From NCBI GenBank assembly GCA_009746045.1, contig RPFO01000436.1:2289453-2353452 (forward strand): a stretch of DNA of 64,000 bases. Reading direction: 5' to 3'. The notes beneath the pieces were generated by a model that saw only the letters and a list, made by a program, of their open reading frames with translations, searched no databases and had not been told where the DNA came from. This DNA is from Mesostigma viride (lineage: Eukaryota; Streptophyta; Mesostigmatophyceae; Mesostigmatales; Mesostigmataceae). This document shows, in pieces, positions 26,959-49,927 of the stretch. A program made the translations under genes and the position numbers. Each line of letters starts with the position of its first letter. Within the stretch, counting starts at the first letter, position 1.

Positions 26959-29900
26959 TCACGGCCGGCCGCCCTTGCGCACGCCCCCTTGGGTGTTCTT
27001 CTTGGACTTGGCACGCTGCGCCCCCTTGGCCAGGGCCAGCTTCTTGCGCTTCCACAACGCGGCCCGCTTGCGCGCCGACTGGGCGGGTCGGACGAAGCAG
27101 GGGAGGGAAGACAGAAAAAACAACAGGAATGACGAATCGTATCCATTAGCGAACACGAGTAAAGAAACACACACACAAAATACTTTTCAATGCAGTCGAA
27201 TCGCCCAATTGAAGAAACCAGCTATCAACAGTCTTGAAAAAACAATAATATCGGAGTTCAATAGCTTGGATGGAGTGGAAGTTAAAACTTTCATTCCAGT
27301 AACCAAGTAGAGCAACCAGCTGAGAAGTACCAATGCTTTCTGTTCCAGAAAATCCCACAGGCCCCTTTGATCAGACCCCTAGGACACACTACAGAGCAGA
27401 GCACACTACAGAGCACACTACAGAGCACACTACAGAGCACACTACAGAGAAAAATGCAGAGCGAAATGCCGCGGTGTTTGGGCTATGACTCGCAGCATGT
27501 GGCCAAGATCCTGCCTTGAGACCAGCTCTACTGCGGTGAGGCAACCACACGAGGGAAACAACGAGCTGTAGAGGCAATGCAGCCATGGGTTGCAGAGGCG
27601 ATGCAGCAATGGGCTGTAGAGGTCATGTACCAGAAATGTCTTGAATCATGTCCACATTCCAAGGAACAAGCTCCAAAGCTCGAACCAAGCCACCCATACG
27701 CTTCGCAGGCAATTTATTGCCCAATGGTGGAGGCAAGTTACTGCAGAGGAACTCAGATAGAGGAACTGGGGAGGCACTTATAGTAAACGCAGCTTGCTAC
27801 TGCAGAGAGGCAATCACTGTAGAGGGCGACTTACCCGGATCTTCCTGGCTTGCTTAACGGTCCCGCCTTTCTTGCCACCTGGCAGCTCCTTGCGCGAGGA
27901 CGCCGAATCCCTGGCAGGCTTGTCCAGCACCTTGTAGATGCGCACCATCCAGTGGGAGGAGGTGAACGCCTGTTTCACGAGGGGGGTGTTGGATGGGTGG
28001 GTATATATATGAAGCCCATTGGGTAAGTGCGTGACATAAGATGGCTGGGTAGATGCGCACCATCCAGTGGGAGGAGGTGAACGCCTGTTTCGTGACGGGG
28101 GGGGGGGGGGTCGATGGGTGGGTGCATGGGTGGGCAGGCGCTACCGCCAGTTGAATTGGAGCACTCAGGGTAGAGTGACCGTGTGACGTTTACAGGGCAG
28201 CGGGTACACCTGGCATGAAGAACACCCCCATCTGCCCTTGCACTTGCTTGAGAACGACGCCCAACTCAGATCACTTGAGCCTGTCTATAGGAGAAGACAC
28301 CCGCCTGCTCAAAGAGTTACAGTATACAAACCTTGCCCTTACCAACTCAAAATACTCATGCCTTAACCAGCACGTGCCCTCACCTCCTCGAAGCACTTGA
28401 GCTTGTGTATAATGAACTCACCTCCTCAAAGTGACTTGAGCTTGTTATGCCTGCCCTCACCCCCTCAAAGTACTACAGCTTGTGCATTATGAACTCATCT
28501 CCTCAAAGTGACTTGAGCTTGTTGTGCTTGCCCTCTAATCTCCTTTAAGTACTTGAGCTTGTGTATAATGAACTCACCTCCTCAAAGTGACTTGAGCTTG
28601 TTGTGCTTGCCCTCACCTCCTCAAAGTACTACAGCTTGTGCATTATGAACTCATCTCCTCAAAGTGACTTGAGCTTGTTACGCCTGCGTCACCTCCTCAA
28701 AAGTGACTTGAGCTTGTTATGCCTGCCCTCACCTCCTCGAAGTATTTGAGCTTGAAGTTCTTGCGGCCGATCTCGGTCCCTCGCACGCGGTCGTACCCCG
28801 ACTGCCCGTGGCCCTGCGTCGCCTCAGCAAAGCGGTAGTAGGACAGCTTGTACATGACGCTGTTGAGCATCGTCTGCGTCGCGCCTGCGTCGATGCGGTA
28901 GCTTCCGTGGGCCTGCGCACGTGACGGCAAGGGGCAGAATGCGCGTGTAAAAGATGGTAAGCGCACAAAGTCTTTCTTGTTATCATCAAGTAAGGTAGCC
29001 GTGGGCATGCGCGCGTGATGGCGCGGGGCAGAACGCACGTGTAAAAGGTGGCAAGCTAAACGAAGGCATGCACCTTGGGGACCCTGTTGGTCCATGCTTC
29101 ACATGGGGTCTATAAATACCATTTATTGCAGTGTGGACCAACGCGGCTTGGGGACCGTATCTTGCTACTCAACCGGTAACTAAGGTAGCTGCCGTGGGTT
29201 TGGCTTGCGCAAGCGAGGGCAAAAATGGCCAAGCAAAACTTGGTACATTATATCTAAAAAATGCACCGCAGGGGGTACTCCTTTGCTAGCTACAGTAGCT
29301 GCCGAGGGCATGGCGCATGCAACGACATGGACATTGGAGAGCAGGAAGGACCTGATGCTAAAGCTGCGAGAGAATTGACGATGGGGCCCCATTCATACGA
29401 GGTCCTACTTGTACCAAAGCCTATACCGGCCAGCTAAATGGCTACTATACAAGAAGCAGCTAAATGGCTACTATACAAGAAGCAGCTAGATGGCTACTAT
29501 ACAAGAAGCAGCTAAATGGCTGCTATACAAGAAGCAGCTAAATGGCTACTATAAAGGAAGCCAACAGATGCGATGAGCCTGTGGGCCAAATGTTGAACAA
29601 ACAGGGAATGCAATCAAGTAGAAATGGGGAATGAAAAGGGCCAAGCTCCAACACCAATAGCGGAAAAAGACGCTAATGGTGCCTAACGTCTGGAGCACAA
29701 AGCATGGCAACCAGGAGCACAAAGCATGGCAACCAGGGTGCATGTCCAACCAGGGTGCCTGCTTCAGGGATGAGCCACGTGATTGCGTAACATAAGATAG
29801 GGAACCATTTGAACTGATTGCGTAACATAAGATAGGGAACCATTTGAACTGATTGGGTGACATAAGATAGGGAACCATTTGAACCCTTTCTCGCCAGGTA

Positions 29901-49927: not shown

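Follow-up and report, generated by a model that had tools for sequence, protein, structure and literature searches.

The window, a 64,000-nt stretch of Mesostigma viride DNA, carries an STT3A-type oligosaccharyltransferase gene at 26959-49927 on the minus strand. The gene has 18 exons that encode 825 amino acids with one terminal stop, and 17 introns of 254-2740 nt. Our model is a spliced alignment to a human STT3A guide with corrections by hand. The open reading frame of exon 14 matches STT3A in the PDB (E 1.9e-65), and the full translation is 100% identical to a public protein (P0001; EukProt, jgi/Mesvir1) over 82% of the length of the translation. P0001 lacks the N-terminal part of the present model, as it begins only at the final codons of exon 6, and its 12 junctions, 6/7 to 17/18, are those of the model. 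The other 119 matches listed share 61-71% identity with the translation and are mostly from land plants. Exon 14 also contains an Ala/Ser/Gly-rich insertion (window 32420-32670) that is missing from the human protein guide. A Pfam scan of ten other open reading frames in the window gave one match, PUA_3, in the ORF at 13113-14024 on the minus strand. This ORF resembles part of a multi-exon RlmI-type rRNA methyltransferase gene. The assembly analyzed comprises 439.9 Mb in 2243 contigs; excerpts of the genome report for strain NIES-296 give 442 Mb in 2363 scaffolds, a mean intron length of 1141.9 bp and repeats over 30.1% of intron space (PMC6947507).

Exon edges recur in the adjoining introns

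We compared 30-nt windows containing 15-30 nt of exon, without gaps, to as much as 1500 nt of the adjoining intron. Three controls were used: the same windows against the reversed intron, windows from exon interiors, and intron points treated like edges. Copies matching at 21/30 or better were found for 13 of the 34 STT3A edges (38%) and for 1/34 in reversed introns; at 24/30 or better the counts were 6/34 and 0/34. None of the 92 exon-interior windows had an intronic copy. With gapped alignment (score at least 14), 15/34 edges and 0/34 reversed controls were positive, and Tandem Repeats Finder also detects the arrays at the exon 14 acceptor (80-nt unit), the exon 15 donor (81-nt) and the exon 16 donor (39/77-nt). 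Collectively, these data confirm that exon edges of STT3A are copied into their own introns above chance, as a sequence-only reading of the locus had claimed. The copies are as follows.

32831..34706, minus strand: exon 14 acceptor array (edge 32864 to 32865), about 23 copies of an 80-nt unit made of 34 nt of exon and 46 nt of intron
30058..31046, minus strand: exon 15 donor array (edge 31017 to 31016), 13 copies, spacing mostly about 81 nt
28375..28754, minus strand: exon 16 donor array (edge 28733 to 28732), period about 39/77 nt
28049..28123, minus strand: exon 17 acceptor copy, lag 115 nt, 36 exonic nt 100% identical
40749..40786, minus strand: exon 9 donor copy, lag 258, 87% over 38 nt, GT retained
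40866..40919, minus strand: second, weaker exon 9 donor copy, lag 141, 70%, coordinates derived by hand from gapped alignment
31781..31833, minus strand: exon 14 donor copy, lag 202
31893..31926, minus strand: weaker exon 14 donor copy, lag 113
35752..35789, minus strand: exon 13 acceptor copy, lag about 92, 84% over 38 nt, gapped
45475..45517, minus strand: old exon 5 donor copy, lag 163, 74%
45959..45989, minus strand: exon 5 acceptor copy, lag 236, 81% (gapped alignment)
47057..47084, minus strand: old exon 3 donor copy, lag 245, 79%
41185..41228, minus strand: old exon 9 acceptor copy, lag 95, 73%, AG lost
37662..37708, minus strand: doubtful old exon 12 acceptor copy, lag 167, with another at lag 313
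28994..29051, minus strand: exon 16 acceptor copy, lag 94, mainly intronic, 82%
29184-29222, minus strand: fainter exon 16 acceptor copy

The earlier reading had given 22 copies for the exon 14 acceptor; we count 23 with an AG and one degenerate. In the 22 copies compared column by column, the AG is kept and the first 30 exonic nt are invariant. The counts proposed for the exon 15 donor (13), exon 9 donor (2), exon 14 donor (2), exon 17 acceptor (1) and exon 13 acceptor (1) all held, as did the single exon 5 acceptor copy by gapped alignment, and the one or two copies put at the exon 5 donor proved to be one. All 13 copies of the exon 15 donor have a GT, with an exonic part 82-87% identical, and homology of the exon 17 acceptor copy extends into the intron part. 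At the exon 16 donor the array is present, but an ungapped count gives four copies, 86-94% alike, rather than nine; the exon 3 donor has one copy rather than about two, and the three acceptor copies listed for exon 16 amount to one to three weak ones. Among the weaker candidates, the exon 9 acceptor does have an old copy, albeit one without its AG, and the exon 6 and exon 13 donors were near chance. No copies had been seen at exons 10-12, where the exon 12 acceptor now shows a doubtful match at 22/30: in one comparison its reversed control reaches 29 against 31 for the lag-167 copy, yet 18 in the 30-nt window test. Large simple arrays also occupy STT3 introns at 35967-37059, 37835-38718, 39845-40134, 42391-42813, 43964-44476 and 47492-47815; their units include a 30-nt repeat (x36), a 9-nt repeat (x98), (GA)n (x145), TAG/GTC triplets, GCAGGC hexamers and an 8-nt repeat (x40), and no exon-edge match was noticed in them.

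Near-identical arrays (97%) are of the type that assemblers mishandle, and the copies might thus be repeats collapsed or expanded during assembly. However, many cases consist of one diverged copy (70-90%), which is not what assembly error produces. Furthermore, the PacBio subreads (N50 11.2 kb, 113x, in the excerpts of PMC6947507) exceed every array at their N50, such that spanning is possible. We consider an assembly artefact hardly credible as the source of the edge copies.

Edge copying was also found beyond STT3. With 200 kb added around the window, 264 kb were covered in all, including an MTR4-type exosome RNA helicase gene at contig positions of about 2259855-2280045 (PDB MTR4 match, E 8.4e-220). 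The gene was modeled by alignment to a human MTR4 guide, adjusted by hand to 21 exons, and its first modeled donor is GC instead of GT. Copies at 21/30 or better were present for 17/40 MTR4 edges (42%), one of which (exon 11 acceptor, lag 15) is poly-C and is equalled by its reversed control, compared to 2/40 in reversed introns, where the control for the exon 4 donor reaches 23. None of 84 exon-interior windows had an intronic copy. Gapped alignment (score at least 14) gave 19/40 edges, one of them an exon-internal piece, and 4/40 reversed; the two exon-internal pieces in MTR4 score 15.1 and 14.1, values also attained by reversed introns of that gene. The exon 14 donor of MTR4 has a border array with a 65-nt lag that both our exon finder and the guide alignment mistook for extra exons. 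This finder, which had pointed to the MTR4 gene, was trained on STT3 alone and returns 16/18 STT3 exons exactly, in what is a circular test; a self-trained version, in which exact STT3 exons fell to as few as 10/18, was set aside. Among 28 further predicted internal exons, 9/56 edges had copies, compared to 0/56 reversed controls and 88/743 flank points. In a set of 33 predicted exons that includes exons of MTR4, the counts were 17/66 edges, 1/66 reversed controls, 64/438 points and 6/359 exon-interior windows. These data support the idea that edge copying is not peculiar to STT3 and extends to MTR4 and to predicted exons of the 264 kb.

Edge copies are tandem duplications that span the splice site

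The orientation and location of the copies define the kind of duplication. Direct copies at 21/30 or better were present in the own intron of 13/34 STT3 and 16/40 MTR4 edges, and inverted copies at the same threshold in 0/34 and 0/40, so inverted duplication was rejected for all 74 edges. The other intron flanking the same exon contained none (0/32 in STT3, 0/38 in MTR4), and pairing edges with non-adjacent introns of the same gene gave 0/480 and 3/684 matches at 21/30 or better. Dispersed elements were rejected since the copies are confined to the adjoining intron. The smallest lags of the 24 edges with copies in the two genes were 61, 65, 79, 80, 80, 82, 83, 91, 91, 94, 95, 95, 107, 113, 115, 116, 120, 121, 151, 245, 258, 298, 313 and 621 nt. 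Sixteen of the 24 fall within 79-121 nt and 19 within 61-151 nt; the remaining five (245, 258, 298, 313 and 621) may be non-adjacent survivors. Only three are multiples of three, and codon positions 1 and 2 of the copies have drifted, which argues against additional coding exons; alternative coding exons were accordingly rejected.

The duplicated units reach well into both exon and intron. A hand-made list of 24 first-copy units shows 15-56 nt of exon and no less than 30 nt of intron per unit, and the deepest edge-anchored match in gapped alignment is 58 nt. We examined homology past the splice site in 22 hand-picked first-copy units (lag at most 163), a set that left out the exon 14 acceptor and exon 16 donor arrays. 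Intronic homology was significant (p<0.05) in 10 of these units and was not in 12; among the units with exonic identity of at least 0.81, it was present in 7/8. The high proportion in these units indicates that young copies are entire units across the splice site and that sharp ends belong to old copies. Collectively, these data show that the edge copies are tandem duplications of units spanning the splice site, with lags mostly of 61-121 nt.

The sequence of the copies reveals how they age. Mismatches between exon and copy occur at 14.7%, 12.6% and 21.7% of codon positions 1, 2 and 3 (43/293, 37/294 and 63/290; p=0.017), indicating that copies drift at every codon position and that the exon contributes mainly synonymous change. 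The exon thus remains a readable reference while the intronic originals vanish, and the apparent truncation of old copies at the splice site follows from conservation of the exon and decay of the intron part. It had been claimed that similarity generally falls with distance from the edge, which did not hold as a rule: at the donors of exons 9, 14 and 16 the edge is matched more closely by a farther copy (at exon 16, by the farthest of all), exon 15 donor copies are flat with distance (0.82-0.87), and decay is confined to the most distant copies of the exon 14 acceptor array.

The earlier reading was right that many copies keep a GT or AG, and it offered selection for decoys as one cause. Retained dinucleotides were found in 22/28 aligned copies, and the exon 14 array, with an AG and an invariant 30-nt exonic part in 22/22, is what maintenance of decoy or auxiliary splice sites might look like. 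However, neutral drift predicts about 21 of 28 at the 13.6% divergence of codon positions 1 and 2. Furthermore, the 28 of 74 edges that passed the filter (score at least 16, at least 12 exonic and 2 intronic aligned nt) are a sample biased toward kept sites. Decoy selection is therefore not seen in this comparison. With codon positions 1 and 2 drifting alike and the AG gone from copies of the exon 9, 12 and 16 acceptors, we regard selection on the copies as very unlikely.

Edges compared with intron interiors

A second proposal of the sequence-only reading was a recombination or repair process focused on exon-intron borders. In the form considered here, duplication would start preferentially at borders and have a characteristic unit of about 80-95 nt; breakage might be coupled to splicing, to R-loops or to nucleosome edges, for example. 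The comparison it suggested, with exon-interior and random intron windows, gave a divided answer in STT3A. Exon interiors were devoid of copies (0/92), but 510 of 1448 intron-internal points (35%) had one at 21/30 or better, compared to 38% of edges. When STT3, MTR4 and the 28 predicted exons were pooled, edges and intron points were repeated to about the same extent: 39/130 (30%) and 832/3442 (24%) at 21/30 or better, and 21/130 (16%) and 647/3442 (19%) at 24/30 or better. The two genes differ, however: in STT3 the rates are about equal, and in MTR4 alone edges (17/40) exceed intron points (234/1251) about twofold with all lags counted, which may point to some border focus.

Counting by repeat family gave a stronger edge signal. 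With each family counted once and weighted by unit length, edges had 3.4-5.4 times the expected number at 22-26/30 in overlapping exon sets, although at 28/30 or better the excess was 2.0-2.4 times and not significant (two edge families each, p 0.27 and 0.20). Ratios of 8-13 times for STT3 families were discarded, since their density left out the edge families. An excess was likewise present among lags of at least 61 nt, a cut-off picked post hoc, where 24/74 edges stand against 13 intron-only families. The edge-hit rate divided by intron-only families per kb was about 0.94 by hand count and 0.04-0.14 in a uniform neutral simulation, a simple one with random introns, units of 61-250 nt only and an exonic part capped at 50 nt. 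At these lags the observed profile peaks at the edge (19/74 for windows centered 10 nt inside the exon, compared to 29/339 pooled over +20 to +60), and the profile simulated with frozen exons was flat. A twofold detection advantage for the frozen exon, corresponding to a doubled visible lifetime of the copy, reduces the profile excess to p=0.04. Moreover, in the 28 other predicted exons the edge count at lags of at least 61 nt is 5/56, with rates of 0.036 in near intron and 0.084 in far intron.

The shape of the units bears on the same question. The concentration of 16/24 smallest edge lags within 79-121 nt and the exonic part of 15-56 nt are both in line with initiation at borders. For the 24 hand-listed units, a uniform distribution of exonic depth is rejected (p 5e-7) but becomes acceptable if each unit must include 30 nt of intron (p 0.08). 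Lags below 61 nt occur at 0/24 edges, compared to 33 of 46 intron families (Fisher p 2e-9). Purging of short-lag copies from edges is an unsafe reason for this absence, because short units seldom straddle an edge and about 1.5 such matches were expected by hand calculation.

On this balance, the proposed border-focused process is retained in part, for the MTR4 difference and the long-lag excess, and loses its footing where pooled intron points have copies about as often as edges do. We think it improbable that duplication starts preferentially at borders, and even a modest focus, which is similarly doubtful, is not claimed here. Slightly less likely again is the far-reaching version, in which duplication in M. 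viride would be targeted to exon-intron borders, with units of about 80-95 nt centered near the splice site copied into the intron time after time. Introns would then grow from their edges and thousands of near-perfect decoy sites would accumulate genome-wide, to be ignored only via exon definition.

Probable mirage-type minisatellites and related systems

We favor the reading, at a probability of roughly 0.78, that the edge copies are mirage-type minisatellites, in which local tandem duplications of an ordinary kind happen to fall across a splice site and in some cases grow into arrays. Its starting point is observed, as the copies are direct and confined to the adjoining intron and homology in the younger cases crosses the splice site and continues on the intron side of the unit. 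Selection would then hold the real exon, with drift in the copy and in both intron parts, a step shown in part by the mismatch data, such that old copies come to look cut off and seeded by the border. A duplication internal to an exon would alter the protein and be lost, and one straddling the edge could spare the exon provided that the exon-proximal site stays in use. If exon definition favors the pair of sites with the shortest exon, outward-lying copies would be skipped. In the gene models, the site used at each array is the one adjacent to the exon, the first donor or the last acceptor. This choice would give the shortest exon, as under exon definition and opposite to the innermost pair of intron definition. 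P0001, itself a predicted protein, agrees with the exon-proximal sites at its 12 junctions, arrays included.

The sequence-only reading knew of no named system of this kind, but amphioxus provides one. According to excerpts of two reports (PMC3087553, PMC3902484), mirages are border-spanning tandem repeats named in amphioxus Adh3 and found also in the globins BflGb6/BflGb9, troponin C and PGBD5. They occur at 5' and 3' borders with units of 10-160 bp and many copies with AG/GT, normal splicing is reportedly undisturbed, and units at cluster boundaries are less homogenized. Copy-number polymorphism or somatic instability is a further mirage hallmark. Four of the six mirage features that we listed are present in Mesostigma: direct tandem repeats across the exon-intron border (13/34 and 16/40, with inverted copies at 0/74), use of both 5' and 3' borders (donors and acceptors in both genes), lags within the unit range (19/24 smallest lags of 61-151 nt), and many copies with AG/GT (22/28). 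The differences lie in the host, a unicellular streptophyte alga in which two housekeeping genes have copies at 38% and 42% of their edges, and in arrays of up to about 23 copies, known here from one assembly and its gene models. The kind of repeat is thus a known one, mirages, and what is notable here is its density and lineage.

Introner elements, in which one element occupies many introns, are among the intron-linked repeats of green algae. The Mesostigma copies are likewise repeats tied to introns in a green alga, but they are edge-specific and, unlike introners, did not recur across non-adjacent introns (0/480 and 3/684). Rogers-type intron gain (ATP2A1; potato RdRp, PMC4974935) is also based on tandem duplication of a segment with splice signals. 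In the portion of the potato study available (PMC4974935), duplication of an intron 3' end and exon start gives a new intron, and the first intron of RdRp holds an 83-bp tandem duplication as well. In that system duplication makes a new intron, whereas the Mesostigma copies lie inside existing introns of 181-2740 nt. Among the entries listed in a literature search, with subscription journals mostly outside its coverage, there was no report of within-intron border-spanning repeats in an alga or plant beyond that potato work (PMC4974935).

Two genes were tested closely, and others in the 264 kb less so. If about 40% of edges were affected genome-wide, the genome would be a natural experiment on splice-site choice and a source of raw material for intron growth and gain, and the range of mirages would widen beyond cephalochordates to include the basal part of the green line that gave rise to land plants. 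Exon versus intron definition in early streptophytes would then be testable with existing long-read RNA data. STT3 intron 13 illustrates the problem posed to the splicing machinery: it offers about 23 acceptors with identical AG context and first 30 exonic nt, only one of which is presumably used.

Finally, other repeats in the window lie outside STT3A. A 3.3-kb array at 6629-9895 consists of about 363 copies of the 9-nt unit GATGGGATG with 99% match, and GC skew is 0.95 at 8001-10000. Two minisatellites 48 kb apart and on opposite strands, at 3082-3573 and 51457-51639, have part of a 52-53-nt unit in common by eye, and some minisatellite units in the window seem to be dispersed rather than local. 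The minisatellite at 51457-51639 may lie just within the first intron of the next gene.
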